Assembly: GCA_030262775.1 (NCBI GenBank)
Contig: JAJSZP010000005.1
Location: 1 to 37,217, forward strand
Length of the DNA stretch: 37,217 nt
Direction of reading: 5' to 3'
Source: Deltaproteobacteria bacterium
GTDB taxonomy: Bacteria > Desulfobacterota > Desulfobacteria > Desulfobacterales > ETH-SRB1
Part shown: piece after piece, positions 980-16,712 of the stretch
Numbering within the stretch: position 1 is the stretch's first letter
Layout: each line of letters opens with the position of its first letter
Translations under genes and position numbers: made by a program
The notes under the pieces: generated by a model
The model's database searches: none
Told to the model about the DNA's origin: nothing
Seen by the model: only the letters and a program-made list of their open reading frames with translations

Positions 980-2755
980 TTACCTCACGCCCATATAAAT
1001 CAAACCGTATAAAAAAAGAAATATAATTGCTGCGCAGGCGCTAAAACCTATCGGAAACCTGTAAGCGTTTTCATTATACGGTTTATTGATGAGTTCTTGA
1101 TATGATACCCTTTTTCCTTGAATCGAATTCCACAACATTTCCAGAAAAACGTAGGGGTGTTTGCTGATCTTCCCAACGGAGACAACATCCTTTGAAAGCA
1201 GATCCTGGCCCATTGATCTGAGTGCATTCAACGGACGATTGCAAAACCATAAAGTTGCTCTTCCAAACATTCTGTAAGGCCAGTCTGTATCAAGACTAAC
1301 CGTTGCCTCACCACCAAGTTTATCAATATAAATCCAGAATGCGGCCAGAGTAAGCACCAGCATCTGCATCATCGCCACAACTGTGCTTATAGCATATGGA
1401 TGGAAATCGACCGGATAAGGCAAAATGTCATAAAGAATTTTTGGGTAAACTCCTGTAAGTGTACATAACCCGGCGGCAATTCCCATTGCCAGCAACATAT
1501 TGAACGGTGGCTCTTTTGCCTCCTCTATAACGTCTTCAGTCCCCTTATTTGTACCGAACCAGACTCCCCAGGGAAGCTTTAATCCTGTATGCAAAAAAGT
1601 ACCAATGGAGGCAAGATGAAGCATCAATTCAATAGAAGGCCTGTGCAAAGCTCCTGCAGCAGCAACAATCATTGTTTTGCTTACAAATCCATTAAAGAGT
1701 GGAACCGCTGAAATGGAAAAAGCGCCCACCATGTACAGGGCAAGCGTGATCGGCATCTTTTTATACAAAGACCTCCCCTGCAAATCCGTCATTTTGCTCC
1801 TGCCTGTAACATATATAACCGCTCCCATCCCCATAAACAGAACGGACTTGTAAAGAATATGACAAAAAGCATGGGCAGCAGCGCCATTGATAGCCATTTC
1901 ACTCCCCAGCCCAATACCGCAAATCATATATCCTACCTGGCTGACAATATGATATGCAAGGAGCCGGCGGATATCGTTTTCAAGGACAGCATAGACCACT
2001 CCATAAAGCGCCATGATCGCCCCCATCCAGACCAGAAGTTCAACTCCGGGGAAACCCCTTAACAAAACGTAAACTGCACTTTTGGTGGTAAAAGCAGTCA
2101 TAAATACAGCGCCGGTAATGGTTGCTTCAGGATATGCATCTGCCAGCCATGCATGAAGCGGAGGCACTGCAGCGTTAAGTAAAAATCCTACCAGTATAAA
2201 CTTGGCAGCAAGTGTTCCAAAATCAAACAACTCAAACGCTAACGATCCGGTGGTTACCGCATGAATGACGATTCCGCACAATAAAACACATCCACCGAAG
2301 AGATGCACCAGAATATACCGGAAACCAGCTTCCAGAGACCGTTTTGTTTTTCGATAAAAAACCAGAAAGACCGAAGAAATGGCCATAATCTCCCAAAAAA
2401 CAAAGAGCGTAAACATATCTCCGGCAAAGACCACACCGAGAGTACATCCCACGTAAAGCAATGCAGCCACATGCTGTCCGTATTCCTTTATGTGTATAGC
2501 ATAGACCATACCAATAAAGGACATGATTACAAAGACATACGCAAAAACCATGCTGAGTTTGTCCACCCTGCCCAGAATAAGTTCGTAATCCAGAAACTGG
2601 TATGTCCAATAGGTGCCGTGGGGCATGTTTATAAGATTCCAGAAAGCTATGGCCGGAATCAACAGCACAAGGGCTTGCTTTAATATTCTTACCCTGATCA
2701 GGGGGATCAAAAGCGCCCCTATAATGTAAATAAATGCGGGGGGGATATTAATCAT
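980..2755 (-). CDS. MrpD/NuoL-like proton-conducting antiporter subunit (third D-type subunit)
   Basis: A 591-residue multi-spanning membrane protein of the proton-conducting transporter family (NuoL/M/N, MrpA/D). The core runs from about residue 70 to 400. The conserved transmembrane Glu lies in FVFWEIM, and a conserved Lys in AFTTKSAVYVLL. The usual Lys of the VKAG..P.H.WL motif is replaced by Asn (LLNAAVPPLHAWLADAY), a change I recall as typical of a subfamily of these large D-like proteins. The C-terminus, after about residue 430, carries a soluble segment and a last membrane helix, as in NuoL-like proteins. The start has AGAGGAT five bases upstream and overlaps the preceding small gene by 8 bases. 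As the last gene of the operon it probably supplies an extra proton channel to the Mrp complex. Ion specificity cannot be read from sequence. Confidence 0.88.
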   Translation of the reverse strand: MINIPPAFIYIIGALLIPLIRVRILKQALVLLIPAIAFWNLINMPHGTYWTYQFLDYELILGRVDKLSMVFAYVFVIMSFIGMVYAIHIKEYGQHVAALLYVGCTLGVVFAGDMFTLFVFWEIMAISSVFLVFYRKTKRSLEAGFRYILVHLFGGCVLLCGIVIHAVTTGSLAFELFDFGTLAAKFILVGFLLNAAVPPLHAWLADAYPEATITGAVFMTAFTTKSAVYVLLRGFPGVELLVWMGAIMALYGVVYAVLENDIRRLLAYHIVSQVGYMICGIGLGSEMAINGAAAHAFCHILYKSVLFMGMGAVIYVTGRSKMTDLQGRSLYKKMPITLALYMVGAFSISAVPLFNGFVSKTMIVAAAGALHRPSIELMLHLASIGTFLHTGLKLPWGVWFGTNKGTEDVIEEAKEPPFNMLLAMGIAAGLCTLTGVYPKILYDILPYPVDFHPYAISTVVAMMQMLVLTLAAFWIYIDKLGGEATVSLDTDWPYRMFGRATLWFCNRPLNALRSMGQDLLSKDVVSVGKISKHPYVFLEMLWNSIQGKRVSYQELINKPYNENAYRFPIGFSACAAIIFLFLYGLIYMGVR

Positions 2756-2960
2756 AATAATCCTCTTTCTTCATGAGCCATGCATGGCCAATCCATTTGG
2801 ATACAAGTATAATTACAACACATCCGACAAACCCGAATACAGCATCAAAGACAGGTATCTTCTGCCACCAGAAATGAGGATGCTGGTTAGGGAACAGAAA
2901 CCCGAGGATACAGGTTGCTGCGATACTTACATAAAGAATAATCTTTAATTTTTTTACCAT
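2748..2960 (-). CDS. Small two-helix membrane protein of the mrp operon, function unknown
   Basis: 70 residues: a basic N-terminus (MVKKLK), a hydrophobic helix at about 7-23, a short polar/aromatic loop (NQHPHFWWQK), a second helix at about 37-55, and an acidic tail. It is not a canonical Mrp subunit that I recognise. It has a ribosome-binding site (GGGAGTAGGA) and is tightly placed: two bases after the stop of the D-type gene upstream, and overlapping the next D-like gene by 8 bases. That makes it a real translated gene and suggests it assembles next to, or stabilises, the large D-like subunit encoded immediately after it. This role is inference from position only. Confidence 0.75.
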   Translation of the reverse strand: MVKKLKIILYVSIAATCILGFLFPNQHPHFWWQKIPVFDAVFGFVGCVVIILVSKWIGHAWLMKKEDYYD

Positions 2961-2961
2961 T

Positions 2962-4458
2962 CTATCCTACTCCCAATATGTTTTGTACTGCCAGAGATGT
3001 CATACTGAAAAAGCGAAAAAATGCATCAGGTACGATCCCGAATACGATTGACAACAAAGCTGTAATGACAAGAGGGATTACCATAAACATGGGGGCTTCA
3101 TCAAAATGGGGGGTAACATCATCCAGCGGCTTTTTGAAAAAAGAATTGTAAATTATAGGAAAGAAAAAAGCCACATCAAGCATAGCGCTCGTCATAAATA
3201 CAAACAAGAAAATAATCTGGTTTGCTTCAAGGGCGCCAAGGCATAAAAACCACTTACTGATAAACCCGCTCATAGGGGGAATGCCTGAAAGCCCAATGGC
3301 TGCAATGGCAAAAGCTCCCATTGTCAATGGCATCTGCCTCCCTATACCATCTAACTGACTGACATAATCCTTGTGTGCTTTTACATGCAGGGCTCCTGCA
3401 CAAAAAAACAGCGTAATTTTCATAAAGGCATGATTTGCCATATGGATAATTCCGCCGGTCATGGAACTTTTGGTCAAAAGCGCTGCCCCAAGAATGATCA
3501 TAGCAAGATTATTAATAGTGGAAAAAGCAAGCCTTCTTTTCAGATGATCCTGACCCAATGCAAGGAAGCCGGCCACGACTATTGTAAAGGAAGCTATATA
3601 TGCCATGATTAGCCAGACCCCCAAATCATGAAGAAGACCCGGACCAAACACAAAAAGAATAACCCTTAAACAACCAAAAACACCTGCCTTAACAACCGCC
3701 ACTGCATGCAAAAGCGCGCTTACAGGGGTAGGAGCAACCATAGCGGTAGGAAGCCATTCGTGCATCGGCATAAGACCTGCTTTGACACCAAAACCGAAGA
3801 TAAGCATCGCGAACAGCATTATCAGGACAGCGCTCGACCCGCCACTGTCCGCCATAAATCCGCCGGCTTTAAAATCAAGAGTGCCGGTCATGTGATAGAT
3901 CATTGCTATGGCAAACAGGAGGACGCACCCTGCTGTAAGAGTATAGGCTAAATATTTTCTCCCCCCCATAATCCCTTCTTTTGACTCCTTGTGGATTACC
4001 AGAGGATAAGTGGCAATGGTAAGTATTTCGTAAAAAACAAGAAAAGTAAGAAGATTAGCTGAAAATGCGATCCCTATTGTCGATGAAAGGCACATGGCAA
4101 AAGCGAAAAAATATCTCGTTTGCGCATGTTCGTTAAGCCCCCTGACATAACCTATAGAATAAAAAGAGGTTGCGATCCATAGAGACGATGCAATTACTCC
4201 GAACAGCATTCCAAAGGCGTCTATCCTGAATTGCAACAAAAGCCCAGGATAAAAAGTTACTATAGTATATTCGATCACTTTTCCCTGCAAAATTACAGGT
4301 ACCATGGAAAAAACGATCAGAAACTTTGCCACCGCGGCCATAATGGTCCACGATTCCCGAATATTCCTGTTCTTCTCTCCAGTGGCAAGAATCAGAAAAG
4401 CAGCGATCATTGACACCAAGACGGCCCAAAGGGGTCTTGATGAATATAGAACATCCAT
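2962..4458 (-). CDS. mnhD: Mrp-type antiporter subunit D homologue (second D-type subunit)
   Basis: A proton-conducting transporter subunit of about 498 residues with some 14 predicted membrane helices. Key features are the helix Glu in FLVFYEILTIATYP, the Lys-bearing half-channel motif FGVKAGLMPMHEWLP, and a second channel Lys in AVVKAGVFG. These polar residues are the ones used for proton transfer in NuoM/MrpD. Two in-frame ATGs lie at 4464 and 4458. GGGAGG abuts the first with no spacing but is six bases from the second, so 4458 is chosen. The gene sits 17 bases after a related D-type subunit (4476-5978), giving tandem D-type subunits as in Mbh/Mrp-like modules where the single large MrpA is broken up. 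Exact ion partner unknown. Confidence 0.88.
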   Translation of the reverse strand: MDVLYSSRPLWAVLVSMIAAFLILATGEKNRNIRESWTIMAAVAKFLIVFSMVPVILQGKVIEYTIVTFYPGLLLQFRIDAFGMLFGVIASSLWIATSFYSIGYVRGLNEHAQTRYFFAFAMCLSSTIGIAFSANLLTFLVFYEILTIATYPLVIHKESKEGIMGGRKYLAYTLTAGCVLLFAIAMIYHMTGTLDFKAGGFMADSGGSSAVLIMLFAMLIFGFGVKAGLMPMHEWLPTAMVAPTPVSALLHAVAVVKAGVFGCLRVILFVFGPGLLHDLGVWLIMAYIASFTIVVAGFLALGQDHLKRRLAFSTINNLAMIILGAALLTKSSMTGGIIHMANHAFMKITLFFCAGALHVKAHKDYVSQLDGIGRQMPLTMGAFAIAAIGLSGIPPMSGFISKWFLCLGALEANQIIFLFVFMTSAMLDVAFFFPIIYNSFFKKPLDDVTPHFDEAPMFMVIPLVITALLSIVFGIVPDAFFRFFSMTSLAVQNILGVG

Positions 4459-4475
4459 TCCCATCCTCCCGGTCC

Positions 4476-5978
4476 TTAAAAGCTTGCAGGGACTGCAAAC
4501 TGAATTACAGACGAAATGATCTTTCCACTAAAAATGCCGAGGAGAATAACTCCCGCAGCCATGATAACAATAGGGACAAGCATAGTAAAAGGAGCCTCGT
4601 CTCTTTGTATCTCCTCATGTATTGTTTCACCGCCATCATGGGCATATGCAGGCTCCATCGGTTTTAAATAAGCACATTCAATAACCCTGAAAAACAGAAC
4701 GGCATTTATCAAGCTGCTGCATAAGAGCGCTGCCGCCCAGAACCACTGCCCGGCCTCTATAGTTCCCAGTATGAGATACCACTTGCTGAAAAAACCACAA
4801 GCAGGCGGTATGCCAACCATGGAAAGAGCTGTTATCGTAAACGCTGCCATAGTAAACGGCATTTTCTTGTTAAGGTGACTCAACTGATGTATTTCCCGCG
4901 TCCCTGTTTTATATAATATTGCACCTGTGACTAAAAAGAGACACGCCATCATAACAGCGTCGTTCATGATATGAAGAATAGCCCCGGTAAGTCCCAATCG
5001 ATTCGCTACACTCACACCAATCACAATATACCCTACTTCCGCGACTACTACATAAACAAGCATCCTCTTAAGGTCTGTTTGAGCAAGCGCCTTAATTCCT
5101 CCCCAAACAATAGCCATGACCGCCAGCCATCCCAAAATGGTAAAGACCGGCACTATTTCTATGGAAAAATGGGGCTGAAATACGGTAAACATCAATCTAA
5201 TCATTACATATGCAGCCACTTTGGTCATCAAAGGGGCAATCAGCGCGCTCACCGCAGAAGGTGCAGTACAGTAAGCATCCGGCAGCCATGTATGCATCGG
5301 AAACAGCCCTGCCTTAACGGCTAAACCAACAGTAAAAAAGGCAAAGGCGACAAGGATAACCTTGGAGTCATACAGGGGCGGCAGAATATTGGCCAAATCA
5401 GCCATATTAAGAGAGCCGGTTGCTATATAAAGGTAACCAATGCCTAACAGGTAAAAACAGGCTCCGATGGTACCTATGATAATATAATTAAAGGCGGCCA
5501 TTGGCGCGCCTTCCTCACCAATTGCAATTAAAGCATAACAGGATAGCGCAGATATCTCCAGAAATACAAAAAGATTGAATACATCACCAGTGATCACTAT
5601 GCCCATGAGTCCAGTGACGAGGAGAAGAAACAGTGTATAAAAAGGAACTGTCTTCTCCGGAAGGTTATCTTGCACACTCTTTTTTGAATAAATGGCAACC
5701 ATCAGACTGATAAATGATACAATGACCAGCACAAATGCGCTAAGATGGTCCAGCACATATTCTATCCCCCACGGAGGGGCCCATCCAGCCAGACGATAGG
5801 AAAATTTGCCGGTCGTCATTACAGTATTCAGTATACTTAAAGAGGAAATAAGAGGTATGATAAGGACGGCGACAACCCATGGATAACAAAGTCTCTTTTT
5901 CCACCACCCAATCACAGGGACAAAGAGGGAAGCAATTAAAGGAACCACTATAATCAGCGCTGCAAATTGTTCTGCCAT
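4476..5978 (-). CDS. mnhD: Mrp-type antiporter subunit D (first D-type subunit)
   Basis: 500 residues, the usual length for MrpD/MnhD. The conserved Glu is in LFVFLEISALSCYALIA, the Lys/His half-channel in VGLAVKAGLFPMHTWLPDAY, and the second Lys in APLMTKVAAYVMIR. It follows mnhC at a distance of one base and has CAGGAGT six bases before ATG, so it is translated with it. In the Mrp complex this subunit is one of the proton channels and, with MrpC, corresponds to NuoN/NuoK of complex I. Of the three D-type proteins encoded here this one looks most like a classical MrpD, and the C-D order agrees with that. Confidence 0.92.
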   Translation of the reverse strand: MAEQFAALIIVVPLIASLFVPVIGWWKKRLCYPWVVAVLIIPLISSLSILNTVMTTGKFSYRLAGWAPPWGIEYVLDHLSAFVLVIVSFISLMVAIYSKKSVQDNLPEKTVPFYTLFLLLVTGLMGIVITGDVFNLFVFLEISALSCYALIAIGEEGAPMAAFNYIIIGTIGACFYLLGIGYLYIATGSLNMADLANILPPLYDSKVILVAFAFFTVGLAVKAGLFPMHTWLPDAYCTAPSAVSALIAPLMTKVAAYVMIRLMFTVFQPHFSIEIVPVFTILGWLAVMAIVWGGIKALAQTDLKRMLVYVVVAEVGYIVIGVSVANRLGLTGAILHIMNDAVMMACLFLVTGAILYKTGTREIHQLSHLNKKMPFTMAAFTITALSMVGIPPACGFFSKWYLILGTIEAGQWFWAAALLCSSLINAVLFFRVIECAYLKPMEPAYAHDGGETIHEEIQRDEAPFTMLVPIVIMAAGVILLGIFSGKIISSVIQFAVPASF

Positions 5979-5979
5979 T

Positions 5980-6375
5980 TTAGACTCCTGTTTCCTTTCT
6001 GATCATCAGGATCTCATCTTCTTCTAAGGTGTTATATTTTCTATAGATCAAAATAAGTGTTGCAATCGCAACGCCGGTCGTGGCTATAGACACAACAATA
6101 GCCGTAAGCATGAGAACATGGGGCAAGGGATTAATATATTTGGCGACTTCGATAACTTCATGACCATGTCCGTGGCCATGCCCTGAAAGTATGGGAACTG
6201 TAGCGCCTGCTTTCACACCTGTAGAAACGTAAAAAAGGATTATTGCTGACTGGAATATATTCATCCCGATTAATTTCTTGACAAGGTTTTTCTTACCAAT
6301 CATCGCATAAAGTCCTATCATCATCAGGATTATATATATCCAGAAGTTGTATTTGCTGATTACGTAGTCGAGCAT
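5980..6375 (-). CDS. mnhC: Mrp antiporter subunit C (NuoK-like) with a His-rich loop
   Basis: 131 residues with three membrane helices, related to NuoK. The conserved part is KKLIGMNIFQSAIILFYVS in helix 2 and a third helix ending in LIYRKYNTLEEDEI. The start chosen (6375) has AAGGAGG five bases upstream and follows the previous stop by one base; an upstream ATG at 6393 would bury that site inside the gene and is unlikely. Between helices 2 and 3 the protein has an alternating Gly-His run, SGHGHGHGHE, in the loop before a conserved Pro-Leu-Pro-His. The run could bind a transition metal, but it may also just be a flexible linker. Confidence 0.9.
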   Translation of the reverse strand: MLDYVISKYNFWIYIILMMIGLYAMIGKKNLVKKLIGMNIFQSAIILFYVSTGVKAGATVPILSGHGHGHGHEVIEVAKYINPLPHVLMLTAIVVSIATTGVAIATLILIYRKYNTLEEDEILMIRKETGV

Positions 6376-6376
6376 A

Positions 6377-6661
6377 TCAGCCTCCTTCACCATTGCGTTT
6401 TTTTCTCAACATCAGAACACAGCCAAGCGCTGCCGTAAAGACGACTACGGTCTCACCCATCGTGTCATAACTCCTGTAATCCGCGAGCACAGCGGTAACG
6501 ATATTAGGAGTTGCAGTTTTTTCCGTGGCCTCCAGGATATACCTTGGTGAAACATACGAATTGGCCGGAGAATTGGGATCACCCCAATCCGGCATGTCTC
6601 CAGCGCCGTAGATAAGCAGTGTTCCTGTCATAATAACCGCGATTAAGGCAATAACTTTCAA
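6377..6661 (-). CDS. MbhE-like Mrp subunit (equivalent of part of the MrpA C-terminal region)
   Basis: 94 residues: an N-terminal helix (about 3-20), an extra-membrane segment with YVSPRYILEATEKTATPNIV and VLADYRSYDTMGE, and a C-terminal helix. The segment TPNIVTAVLADYRSYDTMGE(T)VV is the signature of MbhE and of the end of MrpA/MrpB, which precedes the MnhB domain in classical MrpA-B fusions. The gene starts inside the stop of the preceding one (ATGA overlap) with AAGGAGGT six bases before ATG. In archaeal Mbh/Mbs complexes this protein packs beside MbhD in the antiporter module; a similar structural role is expected here. Confidence 0.85.
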   Translation of the reverse strand: MKVIALIAVIMTGTLLIYGAGDMPDWGDPNSPANSYVSPRYILEATEKTATPNIVTAVLADYRSYDTMGETVVVFTAALGCVLMLRKKRNGEGG

Positions 6662-6903
6662 TCTTTTGACCTCCTTTTTGTTTTACTAACCGCTGCAATA
6701 AACAAAACAGTTCCGACTCCGGCGCCAACTGAAGCCTCGGTAAAGGCTACATCCACCGCCCCCATTTCCGTCCACAGGAGACACATAAAGAAACTGTAAG
6801 CGCCCAAAATAATAACAGCAGCCAAAAGATCCTTTACATTAATAGCAGCAATCGCACAGATTATAATAAAAAGACAGAGTATAAGATCAAGTTGCCAGAT
6901 CAT
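6658..6903 (-). CDS. MbhD-like (DUF4040) Mrp subunit
   Basis: 81 residues with three hydrophobic helices. LLAAVIILGAYSFFMCLLW and GAVDVAFTEASVGAGVGTVLF match the DUF4040/MbhD family; the TEA-G-G motif corresponds to the part of MrpA/NuoJ that lines the ion path. The ATG at 6903 is preceded by GGGAGGG at a normal distance and overlaps the mnhG stop as ATGA, so it is preferred over an ATG 21 bases further up. Together with the mbhE-like gene and mnhB it represents the C-terminal third of a classical MrpA, here encoded separately as in hydrogenase-linked Mrp modules. Confidence 0.85.
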   Translation of the reverse strand: MIWQLDLILCLFIIICAIAAINVKDLLAAVIILGAYSFFMCLLWTEMGAVDVAFTEASVGAGVGTVLFIAAVSKTKRRSKD

Positions 6904-7223
6904 TTGCTTCCCTCCCTGGTCCAAGGTTTAACACCGCACCGAAAAGCAGCTCTTGAAATGGCGTGGGTTGCAGTGGGATTAGCCAAAAAAACAAAAACAG
7001 CGACAACGACTAACTTTATACTGTCTAAAATAGACCCGTGATATGCTGCGTGATATATAGAAAGACCGACAAGCGTTATAAGCACTGCCAGAGTATCGCC
7101 TTTCCCCGTGGCATGCATCCTGGAATAAAAGTCCGGAAAACGCAGGAAACCGATTGTCCCTGTGGCAAAAAAGAAACACCCCACTAAAATAAATATCACA
7201 GATATTCCTTTTACAATTTCCAT
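6900..7223 (-). CDS. mnhG: Mrp antiporter subunit G
   Basis: 107 residues, three membrane helices. The family signature GTIGFLRFPDFYSRMHATGKGDTLAVLI is fully present at about residues 23-50, followed by a third helix ending FVFLANPTATHAISRAA. The ATG at 7223 overlaps the mnhF stop (ATGA) and has GAGAGGTG about nine bases upstream; the TTG three bases earlier is not needed. MrpG packs with E and F at the end of the complex and is required for assembly in studied Mrp systems. Confidence 0.93.
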   Translation of the reverse strand: MEIVKGISVIFILVGCFFFATGTIGFLRFPDFYSRMHATGKGDTLAVLITLVGLSIYHAAYHGSILDSIKLVVVAVFVFLANPTATHAISRAAFRCGVKPWTREGSK

Positions 7224-7489
7224 CAAATTTCACCTCTCCCTTCAAAGTACTTTGCTGCCGCCAGTGTCCCGATAAAGTTCAAAATAGCGTAAACCATTAT
7301 GATATCCAAAAACATCTCTATCCTGCCATAGATAAACCCCATCAGCACCAGAACCACCAATGTTTTTGTGCCGATAGCTCCAACTCCTACGATCCTGTCT
7401 ATAATAGTCGGGCCCCACACTACCCGATAAAGACAAAGTAAAACAAAAAAACAAAGGAAAATACTCACGCCCAAATAAAAATTTTCCAT
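7223..7489 (-). CDS. mnhF: Mrp antiporter subunit F
   Basis: 88 residues, three helices, with the family hallmark RVVWGPTIIDRIVGVGAIGTK at about residues 22-42 and the helix-3 pattern YAILNFIGTLAAAKYFEGRG. It is overlapped at its end by mnhG. It begins 66 bases after the degenerate sigma-54 regulator gene and has GGGAGT before its ATG. The two-gene F-G block is standard; the insertion of a regulator between B and F is not. Confidence 0.93.
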   Translation of the reverse strand: MENFYLGVSIFLCFFVLLCLYRVVWGPTIIDRIVGVGAIGTKTLVVLVLMGFIYGRIEMFLDIIMVYAILNFIGTLAAAKYFEGRGEI

Positions 7490-7554: not shown

Positions 7555-8490
7555 TTAATTAATCGTTAAGTTGTATTTATTAAGCTTTGAATACAATGTG
7601 CTGCGGCTCACATTGAGCTGTTTTGCAACTTTTAATTTGTTCCAGTTGTTCTCCTGCAAAATTTTCATAAGGAATCTTTTCTCATTTTCCTCAAAAGAAG
7701 TTATCCCTTCATTTTTTTCTTTTAACACTTCATCCAGGATACGGGAAGGCAGTAATTCACGCTCAACTTTTTCACCCTTTGCCAGAAGAAAGGCATGTTG
7801 TATTGAGTTTTCCAGCTCCTTGACATTGCCCGGCCAGGTATAGTCCATTAATATCTGCATTGTATCGGATGTAACACCTCTGACATTTTTCCCTATTTCT
7901 ACATTAAGTGTTTCTAAAAAGCATTCTGTTAAAAGAGGGATATCATCTTTCCTCTGCCTTAAAGAAGGTAGATGTATATTAATTACATTCAGCATATAAG
8001 AAAATTCTTCATTAAAAGTTCCTATTTCTACCTCTTTGCCAAGATCAGTATTAACAGCGGCTATAATCCTTACGTCTGTTTTAATGCTTTTTTTTCCTCC
8101 AAGCCTTTTTATAGCCCCGTCCTGTAAAAAATTCTGAAGTTTGATCTGTGTCAACGGAGACATTTTATCAATCTCGCTCAAAAACACTGTCCCGCCATTA
8201 TTCTGCTCCAGACATCCTTTTTTTTGAGATACAGCTCCTTCAAAGGCGCCTGTTTCATGACCAAAAATCCCGCTTTCTACTATAAATCTCGGATAAGCTG
8301 AACAATTATACACATCAAAAGGTTTATCTTTTCTTGAGCTGTTCAAATGGATACATCTTGCCACCAATGCTTTCTCCGTCCCCTCTTCACCCTGAATCAC
8401 AACCGAGGTATCAGTAGGCGCCAGATTCAATATCATATTGTAGATCTGCTGCATCCTGGCAGACTGCTTATTGATCTCCTGTATCTTCAA
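7555..8490 (-). CDS. Degenerate sigma-54 activator (AAA+ plus Fis-type HTH, catalytically dead) inside the mrp operon
   Basis: 311 residues without receiver domain, laid out like PspF: AAA+ domain about 8-240, HTH about 265-306. The fold and linkers match the sigma-54 regulator at 16710-18581, but catalytic positions are changed. Walker A reads GEEGTEKA (34-41; third Gly replaced by Glu). Walker B reads FLSEI (103-107; Asp replaced by Ser). GAFTGA is GAFEGA (81-86). The FREDLYYRL arginine-finger segment is FNEEFSYML (159-167; both Arg lost). Sensor II GNVRELE is GNVKELE. The HTH is well kept (NKLKVAKQLNVSRSTLYSKLNKY). ATG overlaps the mnhB stop (ATGA), so it is co-translated. It should not hydrolyse ATP or remodel sigma-54, but should bind DNA and perhaps form mixed rings. 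The frame is intact over 311 codons, which argues for selection rather than decay. Confidence 0.88.
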   Translation of the reverse strand: MKIQEINKQSARMQQIYNMILNLAPTDTSVVIQGEEGTEKALVARCIHLNSSRKDKPFDVYNCSAYPRFIVESGIFGHETGAFEGAVSQKKGCLEQNNGGTVFLSEIDKMSPLTQIKLQNFLQDGAIKRLGGKKSIKTDVRIIAAVNTDLGKEVEIGTFNEEFSYMLNVINIHLPSLRQRKDDIPLLTECFLETLNVEIGKNVRGVTSDTMQILMDYTWPGNVKELENSIQHAFLLAKGEKVERELLPSRILDEVLKEKNEGITSFEENEKRFLMKILQENNWNKLKVAKQLNVSRSTLYSKLNKYNLTIN

Positions 8491-8981
8491 GCTCTCTTCC
8501 CTTGAATATTCTTTTCTTTTGAATGAAGTCCACCGGTTACTATGTCTAAAAAGATCGAAATCATCGCAGCCATAACAGTCATCCCGACACCGACCTCAAC
8601 ACCCAGAATACCTAGCGATCTTGCCTGCGCAATCCCCACATGCAAAATCTGATCAAGCTCTGCATAGTCTAAAAAATTACCACCAAGTATTAAACACAAT
8701 ACCCCTATTCCTGCATATATAATGGCTCCTGTGCTACACATAATGATATGCATTTTCTCGCTCATCTTCCTTAAAGCATTGTCCAATCCATAGGTGATGA
8801 CCAATAAAATAATGCTTGCCCCAAGAATCACTCCACCCTGAAATCCTCCTCCAGGGCTGTAATGTCCATGAGCTATAACATACAGAGCATAAATCTGCAT
8901 AAAGGGTATCAGCAATCTGGAAACTGTCTTTACAATAACGTCATCCGATTGTTTAGTCATCATATCGTTTACCCCGCTCAT
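8487..8981 (-). CDS. mnhB: Mrp antiporter subunit B
   Basis: 164 residues with four membrane helices. The signature HGHYSPGGGFQGGVILGAS at about residues 42-60 is diagnostic of MrpB/MnhB. The preceding residues SRLLIPFMQIYALYVIA form helix 1, and a later Gly-rich stretch (LGILGVEVGVGMTVMAAMIS) forms the last helix. The start is not certain: ATG at 8981 has only a weak site upstream, while two adjacent ATGs 18-21 bases downstream have GGGG eight bases before them. It is 57 bases after mnhE and overlaps the pseudo-regulator gene. MrpB completes the ion path built from the MbhD/MbhE-like pieces. Confidence 0.92.
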   Translation of the reverse strand: MSGVNDMMTKQSDDVIVKTVSRLLIPFMQIYALYVIAHGHYSPGGGFQGGVILGASIILLVITYGLDNALRKMSEKMHIIMCSTGAIIYAGIGVLCLILGGNFLDYAELDQILHVGIAQARSLGILGVEVGVGMTVMAAMISIFLDIVTGGLHSKEKNIQGKRA

Positions 8982-9038: not shown

Positions 9039-9752
9039 TTACTTTAGCTCTACAAAAACAGGAGCTATATCAAGAGTATCCTGTACATATACATGATCGG
9101 CTTCCATAAATATATGCGCAATCCTGTCCTCCATCTCTCCGGTCAAAAGGTCTTCAGCGGTCTTTTTACTCACAGCATGCACATAAAATACCCCATCTCT
9201 GATATCCAGGGTAATGGTTCCGGGTGTAAGAGTAATCGAATTGGCAAGTGTGACAAAAGAAATGTCGCTTTCCAGTTTTGTCTTAAATTCTATTATCTTT
9301 GGATCTATCAGATTTTTTGGCCCCAGAGCCAATCGAACAACATGCATATTGGACAAAACGATCTGATAGAAAAGCCATGGAATATAAGTAATAAATCTTT
9401 TTACTATTACTCGCATATCACCTGCTCTTGGATTGGCAAAAAGAAGATCATGCGTTGCATGCGAAACCAGACCGCAACAAAGAACTCCGATGCTGATATG
9501 AAATAAATCATAGTGCCCTGACAAGAGCAGCCAGAAACCAAACAAAATAATGAATGTTGCTGTAAATCTGGTAATTTCTGTCTTTGTTTGCCTGGCGCCT
9601 TTAAATATTGCCTCTACTCTTTTTCGATGTACGGCCTGGCTTTCAGATGTGAGCCTGGCAGCAGTATCCAATACCTGCCTGCTCCTCTCTCTTGCTTTCT
9701 CTAATATCTCAAAGGACCTGTCCGTGGCCTGAACCAATATAGTTACTTCCAT
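9039..9752 (-). CDS. mnhE: Mrp antiporter subunit E with a long N-terminal extension
   Basis: 237 residues from the ATG at 9752, which has GAGGGA a few bases upstream; a TTG start 51 bases earlier lacks such support. The MnhE domain occupies roughly residues 64-237: membrane helices around TATFIILFGFWLLLSG, then FITYIPWLFYQIVLSNMHVV and the hallmark ANSITLTPGTITLDI. Usual MnhE proteins are about 160 residues. Here some 60-75 extra, highly charged and probably helical residues (many Arg, Glu, Gln) precede the first membrane helix, so they should lie in the cytoplasm. I do not recognise a domain in them. First core mrp gene, about 100 bases after usp with no obvious separate promoter. Confidence 0.9.
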   Translation of the reverse strand: MEVTILVQATDRSFEILEKARERSRQVLDTAARLTSESQAVHRKRVEAIFKGARQTKTEITRFTATFIILFGFWLLLSGHYDLFHISIGVLCCGLVSHATHDLLFANPRAGDMRVIVKRFITYIPWLFYQIVLSNMHVVRLALGPKNLIDPKIIEFKTKLESDISFVTLANSITLTPGTITLDIRDGVFYVHAVSKKTAEDLLTGEMEDRIAHIFMEADHVYVQDTLDIAPVFVELK

Positions 9753-9853
9753 TACATCCCTCTTCTTTACTAAATTTGGGCTTACCTTACTGCGTACATA
9801 CAAAAAATACGTTTTCCGAATTCAAGAGTATAGACTTTTGAAAAACGCTTTAT

Positions 9854-10645
9854 CTAAAAAGGAACTAACAGTGCAGGAACAGGGCTTCTCTCTACTACGT
9901 TGCAAGAATGTTTCCCTTTAAAAATATCTTTAAGGCTTTGCTCCGACGTTGTCCCCATAACTATTGATGTAGAATTATAATCATGCGCTGCAAGGATAAT
10001 TTCATCAGCAGTTTTGCCCGCATATACATGATATTCTGCGTCAATTCCCTGTTTTAAGCATTTATTGCGCGTTTCTCTTAATTTTTCCATAAGCTGTCTC
10101 AGATCACGCACGGTCAATTTCTTGTGTATTACATTTACAATATCAAGCTCTTTGATTAATTGTTTAAAACCAAGTATAATCTGTAATGCCTTTTCAGATG
10201 CCTGAGACCAATCGGTCGCAAATAAAATACGTTCAAATGCCCCTTTTGAAGTAAGCTTCAATCCTGTTTCATCATTGTCAACTATCATAACAGGCACGCT
10301 TGCATCCTTAACAAGTTTTTTAACAATGGGATCGCCAAACAAAATTCTTCTTTTCTTTTTATCAAAATGAACCACGGCAAATGATATCTGATTTTCATGG
10401 ATTGTGTTCAAAACACAACCGGACAAATCTCCGGAGTCAATTTTTATTGTAGCTTCCAGGCCATAGCTGTTTAATTGTTTTTTCCACTGCTCAAACACCT
10501 CAGGAGTTATATCCTCTGGCCTATCCTTTATTACACAAAGAAAAATTATTTCCTTAAAGCCAATATCTCTAAAACCTGACAATCCTTCCAGCATCCTGGA
10601 ACTTGGACGTCTAAGATCTGTAGCATATAATATTTTTCCGCCCAT
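9854..10645 (-). CDS. Tandem universal stress protein, first gene of the usp-mrp operon
   Basis: 263 residues made of two Usp domains (about 1-125 and 134-263). Each begins with a beta strand of the type KILYATDL / RILFATDWSQASEKAL. The second domain ends VMGTTSEQSLKDIFKG....VVERSPVPALLVPF. The ATP-binding GxxGx9G(S/T) motif is not preserved there (GTTS), so it is probably a non-ATP-binding type. AAGGGGAG lies close before the ATG. It sits at the head of the minus-strand mrp cluster, about 100 bases downstream of a strong sigma-54 promoter match, so it is likely co-transcribed with mnhE onwards. It is a distant relative of the divergent usp at 11283. Its role may be in stress signalling or binding a Mrp subunit; that part is speculative. 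Confidence 0.9.
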   Translation of the reverse strand: MGGKILYATDLRRPSSRMLEGLSGFRDIGFKEIIFLCVIKDRPEDITPEVFEQWKKQLNSYGLEATIKIDSGDLSGCVLNTIHENQISFAVVHFDKKKRRILFGDPIVKKLVKDASVPVMIVDNDETGLKLTSKGAFERILFATDWSQASEKALQIILGFKQLIKELDIVNVIHKKLTVRDLRQLMEKLRETRNKCLKQGIDAEYHVYAGKTADEIILAAHDYNSTSIVMGTTSEQSLKDIFKGKHSCNVVERSPVPALLVPF

Positions 10646-10744
10646 TATCTCCCCTTATTAATAGAGATCAATCTAACTAACTAAAACTTGTAAACTTGAA
10701 CCGTAGATTTATTGAATTTTATTTTATTTATTATTTAAGCCTAA

Positions 10745-10760
10745 AGCAACATTCGTGCCT
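10745..10760 (-). promoter_or_regulatory. Sigma-54 (-24/-12) promoter of the usp-mrp operon
   Basis: Read on the minus strand the bases are AGGCACGAATGTTGCT. Against the sigma-54 consensus TGGCACG-N4-TTGCW only the first base differs. The invariant GG and GC are separated by exactly 10 bases. Transcription would start near 10734, about 90 bases before the usp ATG at 10645. No comparable sigma-70 promoter is evident for this gene. Confidence 0.82.
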
Positions 10761-10905
10761 TTATGATCAAAATGCATGCCTGACCCTGTTTTTCAGGTGT
10801 TGCCAAAATTTGAAGCTGCAGGCATAAATAATATTACCAACACAAAGTGACCGGTTTTGGGGCACATAATAGTAATTTTTCATAAACATATTTATATCTT
10901 TAAAT

Positions 10906-10959
10906 AATATTATGTATAATTTTTGTACACATTTTGACTAAAGGCTGTACAATAATATT
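10906..10959. promoter_or_regulatory. Nested dyad with TTGTACA half-sites (candidate enhancer or operator)
   Basis: TTGTACA at 10923-10929 and TGTACAA at 10946-10952 are exact complements separated by 16 bases. They are flanked by AATATTA (10906-10912) and TAATATT (10953-10959), which are also complementary. It lies about 170-200 bases upstream of the sigma-54 promoter, a normal enhancer distance. Binding protein unknown. Confidence 0.4.
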
Positions 10960-10983
10960 CTCCCATCTCTTTGAGGATTAATA

Positions 10984-11013
10984 CACTTGTAAAAAAGTCC
11001 TTTTTTACAAGTG
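10984..11013. promoter_or_regulatory. Perfect 13-bp palindrome (candidate enhancer site)
   Basis: CACTTGTAAAAAA (10984-10996) and TTTTTTACAAGTG (11001-11013) are perfect complements around GTCC. A repeated CAAGTGGTT follows at once. Because it lies between divergent genes with nothing to terminate, an enhancer/operator role is more likely than a terminator, although the A/T runs would also permit termination. Confidence 0.45.
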
Positions 11014-11142
11014 GTTCAAGTGGTTGTGGATTTAGGAATTACAAATTATTAACAACTTGATAAAATTAGAAAAACCACTATCTTTTATACTTTTTTACGA
11101 GATCATCAGCTTTAAAAAAGTTTAGGCCTGGACGCCTTCTTA

Positions 11143-11158
11143 AGGCTTCTTAATTGCG
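11143..11158 (+). promoter_or_regulatory. Possible weak sigma-54 promoter for plus-strand usp
   Basis: AGGCTTCTTAATTGCG keeps the invariant GG-N10-GC spacing and GGC / TTGC cores but misses the ACG of the -24 box. It is a weak candidate beside the sigma-70-like promoter downstream. Confidence 0.3.
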
Positions 11159-11170
11159 CTTAATAAATAC

Positions 11171-11282: not shown

Positions 11283-12149
11283 ATGAATCTTAAAAAGATG
11301 CTGTTTGTGACCAACTTTGATAAATTGTGGCTTGACGCTCTGGAATCACTGATGGATCTCAGAAAGTCAGGCCTTAATCATGTAGTTTTTCTCCATGTAA
11401 TAGAAAAAGATAAAATAGCAATGCATCGTGGAAAAGGCTACCTCAAAGAGGAAGAAGTCGGTCTCAAACAAAAGGCGGATGTGCGTTTTATAGATTGGGC
11501 GGAAAATATATTTGAAAAAGGAATGGAATGCGGTGCCTATGTTGTAGTTGGTAATTATATTCCCAAGATTCTCTCAACTGTTGAAGCGGAAAAAGCGGAT
11601 CTCATAGTGGTAGAAGCCCATGAGAGGACAAAAGTAGAAAAACTGTACGTGGATTCAGCGGTACTGGAACTCCTCCGACGAACCAAGACTCCTGTTTTAG
11701 TTCATAAATATATGCTGCCATCAGGAAAAACAAACGAAAAGCCTTTTGAGGTACCTCTCTTTGCAACAGACTGGTCTTCTCCATGTGAAAGAGCTTTGGA
11801 ACAGATTATCGACATTAAAAACAGTGTTAAAAAAGTAGTGGTAGTTCATGTTGTCAGTGAAGAGACTATGAAGGGAAAATCTAAAGATAACCTTCAAGCT
11901 CTTCAAAAAGAGAATAAGAAAAGGCTGGAAGATGTCCGTATTACTTTTGAAGACGAAGGTATAGAAACTGAGACTCATCTGGGTATGGGAGAAGTCGTTC
12001 CGCAAATTGAAAGCGCCGCGCGTGAACATGGCGCCACAATGGTTATTACAGGCTCAACAGGGAAAGGAGCATGGCGAGAGCGATGGCTGGGAAGTATTTC
12101 TCAGCAATTGGCAGAATTATCGGAACTTCCCACGTTGTTAATACCTTAA
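11283..12149 (+). CDS. Tandem universal stress protein, ATP-binding type
   Basis: 288 residues with two Usp domains (about 1-145 and 155-288). The second ends with ITGSTGKGAWRERWLGSISQQLAE, which preserves the full nucleotide-binding pattern G-2x-G-9x-G-S, so this protein should bind ATP or a related nucleotide. The gene has a textbook AAGGAGG before its ATG and its own promoter-like sequence, and it is followed by a strong terminator, so it is probably monocistronic. It is divergent from the other tandem usp; the two may respond to the same signal through the shared control region. Soluble cytoplasmic protein; the precise stress or partner is unknown. Confidence 0.92.
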   Translation: MNLKKMLFVTNFDKLWLDALESLMDLRKSGLNHVVFLHVIEKDKIAMHRGKGYLKEEEVGLKQKADVRFIDWAENIFEKGMECGAYVVVGNYIPKILSTVEAEKADLIVVEAHERTKVEKLYVDSAVLELLRRTKTPVLVHKYMLPSGKTNEKPFEVPLFATDWSSPCERALEQIIDIKNSVKKVVVVHVVSEETMKGKSKDNLQALQKENKKRLEDVRITFEDEGIETETHLGMGEVVPQIESAAREHGATMVITGSTGKGAWRERWLGSISQQLAELSELPTLLIP

Positions 12150-12264: not shown

Positions 12265-12657
12265 TTAAGACAAAAATTTCTTTATCATTGCCCCCAATTC
12301 TTCGGGCTCAACCGGTTTTTCAAGATAGGCTTCCGGTTCCGGCACAGGTTGATCTCCAAACTCGTCAAGGGCCTTCTGAGAGCGGAGAAAGGTTCTTTGA
12401 GCTATTCCGGAATGCATAATTACCGGAATATCACTAAATTGAGAATCTGTTTTTACTGCACGATACATCTTGATCCCGCTTTCCTTAGGCATCAATACAT
12501 CCAAGATAATTAAAGCCGGTTTTTCCTTTTTGACCCTGCCGATACCCTCTTCGCCGTCTTTTGCAAGCTCCGGCATATAGCCAATATCTTCTACAACGCT
12601 TGAAACAAATGTTCTCACATCAACATCATCATCAACAATCAGCACTTTTTTCGCCAT
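12265..12657 (-). CDS. Single-domain response regulator (receiver only)
   Basis: 130 residues, a lone REC domain: acidic pocket IVDDD (about 7-11), phosphoacceptor Asp53 in LIILDVLMP, and Lys in YLEKPVEPEE near the end. An insertion-like stretch (RTFLRSQKALDEFGDQPVPEPEA) between strands 4 and 5 is rather long. AAGGAGG precedes ATG. It is the last gene of the four-gene signalling operon and has no output domain. It probably acts by phosphorelay or protein contact with the hybrid kinase encoded just upstream (12714-14342), whose own REC lies at the N-terminus. Confidence 0.9.
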   Translation of the reverse strand: MAKKVLIVDDDVDVRTFVSSVVEDIGYMPELAKDGEEGIGRVKKEKPALIILDVLMPKESGIKMYRAVKTDSQFSDIPVIMHSGIAQRTFLRSQKALDEFGDQPVPEPEAYLEKPVEPEELGAMIKKFLS

Positions 12658-12713: not shown

Positions 12714-14342
12714 TCAAACCTTCTTTCCCGGAAGCCGGAGGGTAAACACTGTCCCCTTGCCGGGTTGAGATGCAACATACATGGTTCCTCCGTGCTCATT
12801 TACAATCTTTTGTGTAACCAGCAACCCGAGGCCGGTACCTCGTCCTCCTTTTGTACTGAAAAATTCGGCAAAAATCTTGCTTTGAGTTTCCTCATCCATA
12901 CCACAACCATTGTCAATAACCTCGAATGTCGCGCCGCTCTCCTCCTCACGTCGCGTCCTTACTTTTACATGCCAATGCTTTTGCGTATCAGAATCAAAAA
13001 CACAGGCATCTATTGCATTTGAAACCAGATTAAGAACACAACTGTGAATTCCTTTTGGGTCAAAATATATCTCACCCATCTCCCTGTCAATGTCCCTGAT
13101 CAGATTGACATCATATTCCTTTGCCTTTGATTCCATAAGATCACAAACTTCATCTGCTATAATATTCGGATTATATTTTTCATATTCAGGTTCTCGTTCT
13201 TTAGAATAACTGAGAAGATCCATAACAAAATCGGAAACTTTATGTATATTTCTTTCCACCATATCCCAGCCAGTTTTCAATTTTTTTTGCTGGCGTTCCC
13301 TTTCAGCGTTTATATCCGCAATTTGCTTCAGAGATCGTGCTTGAAGAGGCAAAGCAGACATATTGTTATAGTCTATTTTATTTTCTGCCGACCAGTCAGC
13401 CGCTCCCTTTTTAAGAGCGGTATTTACTATGTAAACACCGCCTTTCAGTCCATTTAAGATATTTTTGATGCCATGGGCAAGACCGGCTATAGTCTGCCCT
13501 ATAGCTGCCAGTCTTTCAGATTGAATCAGTTCTTTTTCCAGGCGTTTAATTTCTCTAAGATCCTGAAAAAAACCAACACTTCCTATTGGCTTGCCACCTT
13601 CATACAGCATTGCGCACGAAAATCTTACCGGCACTGATTCGCCGCTCTTTGCTATAACAGATGCTTCATCTCCAACAAAAATATCGCTTGCTTTCCGATC
13701 TTTACCTGCAAAAATATCAGAGATTTTTTGAGTTATCCCTTCAGGGTAAAGATCGCCGGCTTTCATGGCGCTTTTGACTTCATCAACAGTATATCCAAAC
13801 ATCTCTTCCGCAGCAGGATTAAATATTATTATATTCTCTTCTTTATCCGTGGCAACAATCCCATCAATCGAACGCTGTACAAGCTTATCCTCAAACTCAT
13901 ACCTTCTCTTGATCTCTGCGGTTTTTTCCCTTACAATATTCCAAAGATCATTGGCATACTTATTCAATGTCTTTTTTGTTTTCAGCCGTTCCTCAGCCCT
14001 TTTTAAAGCAATTGTAAGGAGTTGATCGCTCACCGGCTTGGTTAAAAAATCAGATGCTCCAAAATGAAGCGATTGTATAGCAGATGCCATATCGCCATGT
14101 CCGGTAATAACAATTACCTCTACCTCAGGGTTAATCTCCTTGAGTCTTCTCAAGACTTCTAATCCATCCATCCCGGGCATCTGTATATCGGTAAGCACTA
14201 TTGGAAAGAATTCTTTTTGAAACAAGTCAATTCCCTGCTGCCCGCTCGCTGCAGTTGCCACATCATATCCATCACTTTTAAGAGATATGCTGAAGACTTT
14301 TCTAATGCCCTCTTCGTCATCAATCAGCAAAAGTTTTGACAT
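12714..14342 (-). CDS. REC-PAS-histidine kinase hybrid
   Basis: 542 residues, soluble. REC at 1-120 with Asp52 in VLTDIQMPG and Lys102; coiled linker 120-150; PAS 152-265; DHp with His290 in GLAHGIKNILNGLKGG; HATPase 385-540 with N box NLVSNAIDA, G1 DNGCGMD and G2 GGRGTGLGL. The REC and linker resemble those of the sigma-54 regulator in the same operon, suggesting a shared origin. An oddity lies in the DHp hairpin: between VNTALKKG and KKLKTGWDMVERNI there is an insert of about 40 residues (about 313-352) not usual in close relatives I know. The histidine is followed by Gly rather than the common Glu, as in some other kinases of this class. Likely passes phosphate to the single-domain REC protein next door. 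Confidence 0.9.
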   Translation of the reverse strand: MSKLLLIDDEEGIRKVFSISLKSDGYDVATAASGQQGIDLFQKEFFPIVLTDIQMPGMDGLEVLRRLKEINPEVEVIVITGHGDMASAIQSLHFGASDFLTKPVSDQLLTIALKRAEERLKTKKTLNKYANDLWNIVREKTAEIKRRYEFEDKLVQRSIDGIVATDKEENIIIFNPAAEEMFGYTVDEVKSAMKAGDLYPEGITQKISDIFAGKDRKASDIFVGDEASVIAKSGESVPVRFSCAMLYEGGKPIGSVGFFQDLREIKRLEKELIQSERLAAIGQTIAGLAHGIKNILNGLKGGVYIVNTALKKGAADWSAENKIDYNNMSALPLQARSLKQIADINAERERQQKKLKTGWDMVERNIHKVSDFVMDLLSYSKEREPEYEKYNPNIIADEVCDLMESKAKEYDVNLIRDIDREMGEIYFDPKGIHSCVLNLVSNAIDACVFDSDTQKHWHVKVRTRREEESGATFEVIDNGCGMDEETQSKIFAEFFSTKGGRGTGLGLLVTQKIVNEHGGTMYVASQPGKGTVFTLRLPGKKV

Positions 14343-14423: not shown

Positions 14424-14444
14424 TAACATACTTTAGGTATGTTA
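14424..14444. repeat. 8-bp hairpin overlapping the sensor-kinase stop codon
   Basis: TAACATAC (14424-14431) and GTATGTTA (14437-14444) pair perfectly, and the stop codon of the kinase gene lies in the stem. No T tract follows on the minus strand, so it is more likely a processing or stability element within the operon than a terminator. Confidence 0.4.
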
Positions 14445-16490
14445 AACACTTTTTCCTGAAATAGCGGGAAATATCACTTTAAAAGAAGTCCCCACATCTT
14501 CTTTACTTTCAACAGTGATTTCTCCCCCATAGTCTTTAACAATATCATAACTTATAGATAACCCAAGTCCTGTTCCAGCGCCAATTTCTTTGGTTGTAAG
14601 AAATGGTTCAAAGATCTTGTCAATAATATCAGCCGGTATTCCTTTGCCGTTATCTGAAACTATTGCTACAACATGTTTGTCTTCCGCAAAGGTACTGACC
14701 TTTAGAATTTTTTTCCAGGTTTTTCCTCTTGCTTCCAAAGCATCGCGCGCATTAATAATCAGATTAATAAACACCTGTTCCAGTCTGTTATGATCCGCCA
14801 GTATGGGAGGAAGATTCTCGGCAAAATCCAACTCTATATGTATCTGATGAAGAGTTAATTGCTGGTTCAGCACCTGAAAAACATCCGCAATCGGTTTATT
14901 GATATTAATCTCGGCCCCTTTGACGTCAGATACTCTTGCGAAGTCTCTCATATGATTGATTATTGCGGATGCACGGTCAACGTAGCTGCTCATCTCTTCT
15001 GCCATGGTACGAAATGACTCTTTATCTATACTTTCACCTCTGTTTATCATCTTTATAAAAAAATCACTCCCCACCTTAATGACATTGAGAGGCTGATTCA
15101 ACTCATGGGCGATGCCGGAAGCCATAGTGCCAAGCGCCGACATCTTGCTGGCCTGAATTAACTGGGCTTCTTTTTCAACGCTTTCCGTAACATCTGACGT
15201 CGTTATAATCAGCGCATTTTGCTTCATATATTCTGCAAGACGCACATAAATGTTGACATAAAAAAATCCATTGTCTTTCCTGAAATGTTGCCTTTTGAAA
15301 TAAAGGAGAGTCTTGCCTTTTTTAATTGAAGCAAAATCATCAATCATATCTTCGCATGCTCTGTTTGAAAGATCAAAAAAGGACTTTTGCAAAAATTCTT
15401 CTCGCGAATACCCATAAAAACTTTGAGCTGTTTCGTTTACATCCAGGATGGCAAATGTCCTGCAGTCGACAATAAAAATCGGATTTGGATCAGTATTGAA
15501 CAGATCCCGATATTTTCTTTCAGAAATTATCAGTTCCATTTCAAATTGATTGCGACTGTGAAGCATATGTTTAAATGAATCGGCCAGCCGCATTATTTCA
15601 TCTCCGGAGTATTTTCTGTAAATTTCGCAATTAATACATCCCTCAACCTTTTCCGAAAACTTTCCCGAAGGCTCTGACCAGCGAAGAGTGTTCTGCACAA
15701 ACCAGCACGGTATGTCTGTCACGCCATATGCAGGACACTCTGTTTTGTTACAATCCGATTCTTCCCAACATTTAATAGTTTTGCCGAATTGAATTGTGGA
15801 TTTTCCGTGACTGGCCAGGTCTGCCATAGAGGTAAGCCTGGAAATAGGACGTGTAATATAATGCGAAAACCACAGGGCCAAAAAAAACCCCACAGCTCCC
15901 ATAAGAATCAGGGTGCCAGCAATTTCACGGTTTCTAAGCGCTATAATTCTTTTTTCTGTTGGTGACCAGCTAATCCCCACAGACAATACACCCAGCATAT
16001 TTCTTTCTGTTCCGTGACATTTATTGCAAGCTTTTTCATTTCTGATGGGCATAGCATAGCTGATAACTTTTTCTTTCCCATAGTATTCAAAGCCATTAAC
16101 CAGGCTTTTGCTTCGCAAACTCCTTTTAGTAATTTCAGAATTAACTGGACTGCCGATAAGTCCGGCATTACCGGCATACTTTATAATTCCGTCCCAATCA
16201 CAAAGAATGATTCTATATAACTCTTCAGCTTCATTCAAGTCTTCTAATATCTTCTGAACATATTCCATCTCACCATCAAGCATCGGATATTCGATGCTCC
16301 GCATAACAATCTTGCTGACCTTAAGCGCCCTGCCCTCTTGCTCCGCAGTATAAAACTTTATCTGCCTGATTGTCTGGTAATAAGTAAAAAGACCCATTAC
16401 ACCGCACAAAATCAGCGAGATCCCCAATATTATCTTATTTCTCAGGTTATTGCGAACAAGATTTGATATAGTGGCTATTTTAAATGGCAT
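14442..16490 (-). CDS. Membrane sensor kinase with a c-type heme motif and a Cys-rich insert
   Basis: 682 residues. Helix 1 at about 19-38, periplasmic sensor about 40-188, helix 2 at about 190-209, HAMP-like region, PAS about 325-440, DHp with His462 in [12 protein letters not shown], HATPase to the end ([25 protein letters not shown]). The periplasmic domain holds CNKCH (155-159), a covalent heme c site, so the sensor probably reads redox state or a diatomic ligand. Directly after HAMP lies a cytoplasmic segment with six Cys (241, 247, 252, 262, 285, 288; [17 protein letters not shown]....PCW....CINC) of the type seen in many deltaproteobacterial sensors and able to hold a metal or Fe-S centre. 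No ribosome-binding site is evident; two palindromic elements lie just upstream. It is the obvious partner of the sigma-54 regulator. Confidence 0.9.
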
Positions 16491-16567: not shown

Positions 16568-16712
16568 TAGTGCCTAAACGAAAACTGCTAATTCTCCCAA
16601 TTTCTGCGTCAGGCTTAAATTTTACTCCTCAAAATACTCAATGTATTCCTGCGGTTAAAATTTTCGCCTTCCTTGAACTTGAAAAAATTTTCTAGTTTTC
16701 GTTCGGGCACTA
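16568..16712. mobile_element. MITE-like palindromic element overlapping the sigma-54 regulator stop codon
   Basis: Terminal inverted repeats TAGTGCCTAAACGAAAACT (16568-16586) and, on the other strand, TAGTGCCCGAACGAAAACT (16694-16712) match at 17 of 19 positions. Inside are further complementary segments (TTAAATTTT / TTAAAATTT) and a central AATAC-TCAAT-GTATT hairpin. There is no coding capacity. The terminal TAG supplies the stop codon of the regulator gene read on the minus strand. Confidence 0.75.

Follow-up and report, generated by a model that had tools for sequence, protein, structure and literature searches.

The DNA analysed here, a stretch of 37,217 nucleotides from a Deltaproteobacteria bacterium of the Desulfobacterales (hereafter the window), raises the question of what a transcription activator that has lost its catalytic residues could be doing inside an Mrp (Mnh) antiporter operon. 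The operon has the subunit set of known Mrp operons (mnhA/D, B, C, D, E, F and G), but differs from them in that mnhB and mnhF are separated by a regulator gene, a universal-stress-type protein (USP) gene stands first, and a cassette of a bacterial enhancer-binding protein (bEBP) and kinases is linked to it (Table 1). The regulator gene, which encodes what we call the pseudo-bEBP, runs on the minus strand from 8490 to 7555 over 311 codons, and its TTG start shares four base pairs (TTGA at 8487-8490) with the TGA stop of mnhB, an overlap that not every relative has in this exact form. By descent the protein is clearly a bEBP, with a complete domain set in Pfam consisting of a Sigma54_activat AAA+ domain (E 2.8e-52), the lid AAA_lid_14 and the Fis-type HTH_8. 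An AlphaFold2 model built from 28 aligned sequences has the bEBP fold (mean pLDDT 85, pTM 0.68), the best structure matches of which are ZraR (1ojl), NtrC1, LuxO, NtrX and FlrC. In domain order, fold and HTH the protein resembles the PspF/NtrC/ZraR-type bEBPs, among which PspF likewise has no N-terminal domain, and it agrees with a preliminary description made from the DNA alone, which had noted a full-length PspF-like protein with an intact HTH in a 311-codon frame overlapping mnhB; the strand is minus.

Table 1 Features of the Mrp operon, its upstream region and the linked regulatory cassette in the window.
Feature	Coordinates	Strand	Remarks
Pseudo-bEBP, dead sigma-54 activator	7555..8490	-	AAA+ core, lid and Fis-type HTH, 311 aa; N-terminal sensory domain absent
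Degenerate Walker A GEEGTEKA, residues 34-41	8368..8391	-	Gly to Glu39, 17/17 orthologues
Degenerate sigma-54 contact loop GAFEGA, residues 81-86	8233..8250	-	No Thr in any of the 17; G013 has the loop deleted
Degenerate Walker B FLSEI, residues 103-107	8170..8184	-	Asp absent in 17/17
Lost arginine fingers FNEEFSYML, residues 159-167	7990..8016	-	Finger 1 absent in 17/17, finger 2 absent in 12/17
Altered sensor II GNVKELE, residues 221-227	7810..7830	-	Lys in 17/17
Intact Fis-type HTH, residues 266-308	7567..7695	-	Matched to the HTH of the partner bEBP
Remaining mrp operon	980..7226	-	mnhG, DUF4040, mnhA/B-like, mnhC, three MnhD/A-type subunits
mnhF	7223..7489	-	MrpF_PhaF
mnhB	8487..8981	-	Stop overlaps the pseudo-bEBP gene start
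mnhE	9039..9803	-	MNHE
USP1	9854..10645	-	First gene of the operon
Putative sigma-54 promoter AGGCACG-N4-TTGCT	10745..10760	-	Promoter of the operon USP1-mnhE-mnhB-pseudo-bEBP-mnhF...
Putative enhancer site 3, TGCCCCAAAACCGGTCA	10848..10864		Degenerate in the window but strong in relatives; site 2 lies 65 bp away
Putative enhancer site 2, TGTACAAAAATTATACA	10913..10929		Centre at -175
Putative enhancer site 1, TGTACAGCCTTTAGTCA	10935..10951		Weak; centre at -197 from the -12 GC
USP2, two-domain universal-stress-type protein	11283..12149	+	Divergent from the operon
Single-domain response regulator of the cassette	12265..12657	-	
Receiver-PAS-histidine kinase of the cassette	12714..14342	-	
Sensor histidine kinase of the cassette	14442..16490	-	PAS, HisKA, HATPase
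Intact partner, response-regulator bEBP	16710..18581	-	Receiver, linker, AAA+ and HTH, 623 aa

Where the protein departs from PspF, NtrC and ZraR is in the residues for ATPase activity, the arginine fingers and the sigma-54 contact, which have been lost and the loss of which is fixed; the roles of these motifs with respect to ATP, the neighbouring subunit and sigma-54 have been reviewed (PMC7175178). When aligned to its paralogue in the window, hereafter the partner, and to the solved structures of ZraR (1ojl) and NtrC1 (4l4u), the window protein has the third Gly of Walker A replaced by Glu39 with Lys40 kept, the Walker B Asp replaced by Ser105 with Glu106 kept, Asn160 and Met166 in place of the two arginine-finger Arg and Lys224 in place of the sensor II Arg. 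Neither the Walker A signature GxxGxGK nor the Walker B Asp-Glu pair, the GAFTGA loop, the arginine fingers or the sensor II Arg of a functional activator is found in it. Every substitution in the preliminary description (GEEGTEK, GAFEGA, FLSEI, FNEEFSYML and GNVKELE) was borne out by the alignment, in which the partner (18581 to 16710), as had also been claimed, keeps every motif residue.

The changes are shared by 17 orthologues from four families of Desulfobacterota, namely the window genome (G000), nine other genomes of its family with 78-96% identity to the window protein and G013 with 58% identity, all ten with the gene at the same position, two genomes of f64 (a family in the window genome's order), three of f90 (a family elsewhere in the phylum) and G460. 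The third Gly of Walker A is Glu and the sensor II Arg is Lys, a conservative change, in all 17; whether the catalytic substitutions are fixed was a check proposed at the outset, and these two are. The GAFTGA Thr is present in none of the proteins, the Walker B Asp has become Ser, Asn, Thr or Cys, and the first arginine finger has given way to Asn in 16 proteins and to Leu in the remaining one. The reported loss of both fingers is correct for the window protein and does not extend to the whole set, since the second finger is Met in 12 of the orthologues and remains Arg in five (from f90, G013 and G460). By comparison, all eight motif residues are intact in 16/16 partner bEBPs and 40/40 other bEBPs. 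Chance or assembly error is excluded by the recurrence of the same changes in 17 genomes. From its motifs the protein would be expected neither to hydrolyse ATP nor to contact sigma-54, and it may retain some nucleotide binding, as the Walker A Lys is preserved in 17/17 and the Walker B Glu in 13/17 of the sequences.

Multiple catalytic losses are also what a decaying duplicate would display. The pseudo-bEBP, including its AAA+ core, is under ordinary purifying selection: under the codon model MG+F3X4 in IQ-TREE, ten close orthologues give an omega of 0.129 (0.123 when G013 is added), their AAA+ portion 0.133 and their HTH 0.116, and the reference values are 0.124 for the AAA+ domain of the partner, 0.22 for the partner's N-terminus, 0.109 for mnhB and 0.113 for mnhF. 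The AAA+ value is like that of the partner, which suggests that the AAA+ fold still has a role and disfavours decay. Stop codons in relatives, an omega near 1 and homologues with restored motifs at the locus had been named beforehand as results that would speak against selection; the frames are without stops in all 17 genomes, omega is far from 1 and no motif-restored homologue was found at the locus among the relatives examined. Together with the conserved position and start of the gene and the fixed replacement residues, the omega of 0.13, the intact frames across four families and the synteny refute a pseudogene, and we assign that reading, or an assembly artefact, a negligible probability. 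In the protein tree the 17 sequences form one clade (UFBoot 100), which rules out an independent origin in each family, and since this clade branches close to the base of the lineage to which the partner belongs, the catalytic loss appears to be ancient and most simply a single event.

The pseudo-bEBP gene and the partner occur together in 16 genomes. The two exceptions, G005 with only the partner and G014 with only the pseudo-bEBP, are both cases in which the contig ends before the missing gene, and 11 sampled relatives of these families have neither. Several of the relatives that have neither gene possess a plainer, differently ordered Mrp operon; in G001, G002 and G010 (L165, L166 and L167) an mnhE-F-G-A-B-C-D operon lies beside the same ETFQO-cooC genes with no USP and no bEBP cassette. 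The pseudo-bEBP gene hence travels with the regulatory cassette and not with Mrp as such, as relatives devoid of the cassette still have Mrp. On contigs that cover the region, the genes run partner, kinase, receiver-kinase, receiver, USP2 (divergent), USP1, mnhE, mnhB, pseudo-bEBP, mnhF, mnhG and the rest. The partner gene is located about 9 kb from the pseudo-bEBP gene and outside the operon that it probably controls. In G460, in which the order is partner, USP1, USP2, pseudo-bEBP, mnhE, mnhF and so on, the pseudo-bEBP gene has a new position between USP2 and mnhE, still in the same operon and downstream of a sigma-54 promoter with sites. The fixed losses, the omega of 0.13, the synteny, the co-occurrence with the partner and the single monophyletic clade strongly support the initial proposal of a selected pseudo-activator.

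The similarity between the two paralogues is unevenly distributed. The pseudo-bEBP and the partner are 70% identical in the HTH (78% in the HTH core) and 56% in the AAA+ core, the reverse of what is seen between the partner and its sister bEBP clade (51% in the HTH and 72% in the AAA+ core), and the corresponding values for the pseudo-bEBP and other bEBPs are 37% and 48%. The HTH identity is 69.8% within the same genome and 69.6% between genomes, so that gene conversion or a genome-specific co-evolution of the HTH can be rejected and the match is an old one that has been preserved, not a product of local homogenisation. With the HTH domains more alike than the AAA+ cores, the simplest reading is that both proteins are held to the same DNA sites.

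Candidates for such sites lie upstream of USP1. A sigma-54 promoter was found there in 12/12 genomes examined, f90 included, and also in G460 and G079; its score is weak in a few genomes (10.5 bits in G013). The relaxed sigma-54 pattern has 12 matches in the window against 9.1 expected, a number that is uninformative without conservation. Across relatives the promoter is preceded by 17-bp palindromes TGTAC-N7-GTACA at -107 to -124, -171 to -191 and -195 to -214, with spacings of about 65 and 22 bp that are kept across families; sites 1 and 3 of the window genome are weak or degenerate. The weight matrix for the sites was derived from ten genomes, for which matches are circular, and independent support comes from G079 and G460, both outside the training set, in which USP1 is preceded by the same trio. 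A weight-matrix scan of the window revealed no site above threshold upstream of the partner gene or the kinase. Genome-wide scans were pattern searches only, in which exact matches to the strict 17-bp consensus are too few to inform alone; in G505, two of the three exact genome-wide sites fall at the USP1 promoter. The sites are assigned to the proteins by co-occurrence and conservation. The two paralogues are seen to co-occur, and sharing of targets is suggested by the HTH match and the site conservation. The earlier idea of a competitor for enhancer sites is independently supported by the matched HTH and by the conserved sigma-54 promoter and palindromes in front of the operon that holds the gene, the common binding itself being predicted.

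Two further observations concern the DNA around these sites. Between sites 2 and 3 (10865-10912) a block TAAAGATATAAATATGTT is nearly invariant in the family and more conserved than the sites themselves, and is perhaps a DNA-bending or further binding element. In G460, two extra palindromic sites 21 bp apart lie over the 5′ end of the pseudo-bEBP gene (L154 9083-9120) and are a possible internal operator.

The sigma-54 type of the promoter bears on whether the pseudo-bEBP could function apart from sigma-54, using its HTH and perhaps a new AAA+ ligand to act at sigma-70 promoters or to repress, with no need for the partner. VpsR, Rhodobacter capsulatus NtrC and Caulobacter NtrC share with the pseudo-bEBP a bEBP fold with no usable GAFTGA loop; several such bEBPs act at sigma-70 promoters, VpsR without ATP, whereas R. 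capsulatus NtrC depends on ATP binding and Caulobacter NtrC on its Walker residues (PMC10274813). The VpsR structure 7v2b is, moreover, one of the sequence matches of the window protein. These proteins are, in contrast to the pseudo-bEBP, response regulators at sigma-70 promoters, while here an intact paralogue and a sigma-54 promoter accompany the protein. The pseudo-bEBP gene lacks an intact partner only at a contig end, its HTH is matched to that of a sigma-54 activator and the conserved promoter beside the sites is of the sigma-54 type, which makes a partner-independent role quite improbable; a sigma-70-type role fits less well than that of a co-activating subunit.

The explanation towards which we lean, with some reserve, is that a conserved pseudo-bEBP shares the enhancer sites of its partner, perhaps in mixed oligomers, and damps its own operon. 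In this model, a duplicate of a sigma-54 activator would have lost ATP hydrolysis and sigma-54 contact and kept the fold and the DNA specificity of the partner. The linked kinase cassette would phosphorylate the response-regulator bEBP (16710-18581), which would then bind the TGTAC-N7-GTACA sites upstream of USP1 and drive the operon from the sigma-54 promoter. Expression of the operon would cause the pseudo-bEBP to accumulate along with Mrp; as a homodimer or in mixed oligomers with the partner, it would occupy the same sites and lower activation, resulting in a negative feedback built into the sodium/proton antiporter operon. Such feedback is favoured because operon membership survives rearrangement, the HTH is matched, the AAA+ core is constrained and the residues for ATP, the neighbouring subunit and sigma-54 are lost. 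The preliminary description had likewise named a ring poison limiting its own operon as one possibility. Common binding sites, mixed oligomers and a net negative effect are all inferred, and the protein is probably a built-in brake or modulator of the Mrp operon; as regards the sign of regulation, the sequence is compatible with a brake and a co-activating subunit alike.

As a pure DNA competitor, a homodimer would occupy the enhancer sites and never contact the partner, the AAA+ domain serving as a scaffold. This variant of the damping model accords with the conserved HTH and the conserved sites, but a scaffold predicts a relaxed constraint on the AAA+ domain, the omega of which (0.133) equals that of the partner, and we consider it unlikely. 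An AAA+ core as constrained as the partner's is evidently still in use, which speaks for contacts within an oligomer rather than for competition on DNA alone.

The same constraint is consistent with the main rival to damping, in which the pseudo-bEBP is a specialised co-activator, a non-hydrolysing subunit of a mixed ring that assists its assembly or placement at paired sites and thereby raises or shapes activation. Besides the near-equal omega of the two AAA+ domains (0.133 and 0.124), this reading draws on the strict pairing of the two genes, the paired or triple sites with fixed spacing of about 22 and 65 bp, and the existence of hetero-oligomeric bEBPs (PMC9542535). HrpR-HrpS, VnfA1-VnfA3, FleQ-FleT and RedR1-RedR2 are, like the pair described here, two paralogous bEBPs at the same promoters (the shared sites being predicted in our case), and VnfA1 and VnfA3 have their binding targets in common (PMC9542535). 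These precedents are, however, co-activators that are not described as devoid of ATPase motifs (PMC9542535), whereas here one member has no catalytic apparatus and is encoded inside the regulated operon. Furthermore, the loss of the sigma-54 contact loop and of an arginine finger would impair the neighbouring sites of a ring, and the location within the target operon is unlike that of an activator gene. On balance co-activation seems rather unlikely, although it deserves slightly more weight than the bare competitor.

The damping model may reach beyond the Mrp operon. In G000 and G003 the interval from nhaD to the rnf operon contains a pair of sites similar to sites 2 and 3, with the 65 bp spacing, and a sigma-54 promoter directed towards rnfB, and such a pair is also present upstream of nhaD in G079; the nhaD/rnf-linked sites are at G000:C26 (L181 1740-1910), L179 3279-3462 and L140 11032-11113. 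No nhaD-linked sites were found in G008, G009 and G013, and this part of the regulon is seen only in the window's genus and f64. The presence of the sites near mrp, rnf and nhaD, which encodes a Na+/H+ antiporter, suggests a sodium-energetics regulon. Mrp and Rnf have been proposed to form a sodium energy circuit in Seep-SRB1a, the sulfate-reducing partners of anaerobic methanotrophs (PMC10553843). A more specific and doubtful form of the damping model would have the inactive subunit enter the partner's ring at the shared sites and set activation in proportion to the output of the operon, and with it the sodium circuit of Mrp, Rnf and NhaD.

If true, this would amount to a subunit-poison feedback on the sodium circuit of syntrophic sulfate reducers, of a kind for which we know of no description in sigma-54 regulation. 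The locus brings to light a candidate regulon under sigma-54 that would serve sodium energetics (Mrp, Rnf and NhaD) in Seep-SRB1a. It also offers a natural case in which to ask how many inactive subunits can be accommodated by the ring of a sigma-54 activator. Among kinases, pseudo-enzymes are familiar; a conserved bEBP that lacks its catalytic and sigma-54-contact determinants and always stands beside an intact partner in four families has, to our knowledge, not been described. In the open-access literature we found no direct precedent for a conserved bEBP partner that has lost its catalytic residues, nor for control of an mrp operon by sigma-54, a provisional result.

Several minor features of the locus are also of note. 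The Mrp operon of G001, G002 and G010 represents a locus-level replacement in close relatives. The G013 gene groups with f90 and not with its own family in the tree (L106 11330-12256), a possible case of transfer between lineages. The two double-domain universal stress proteins that flank the regulatory region (9854-12149) are conserved with the cassette and are also found inside the G460 operon. Finally, the sensor region of the cassette histidine kinase (14442-16490) contains a CxxCH motif (CNKCH) followed by a Cys-rich insert, which suggests that a haem- or metal-based redox sensor may feed the Mrp regulator.
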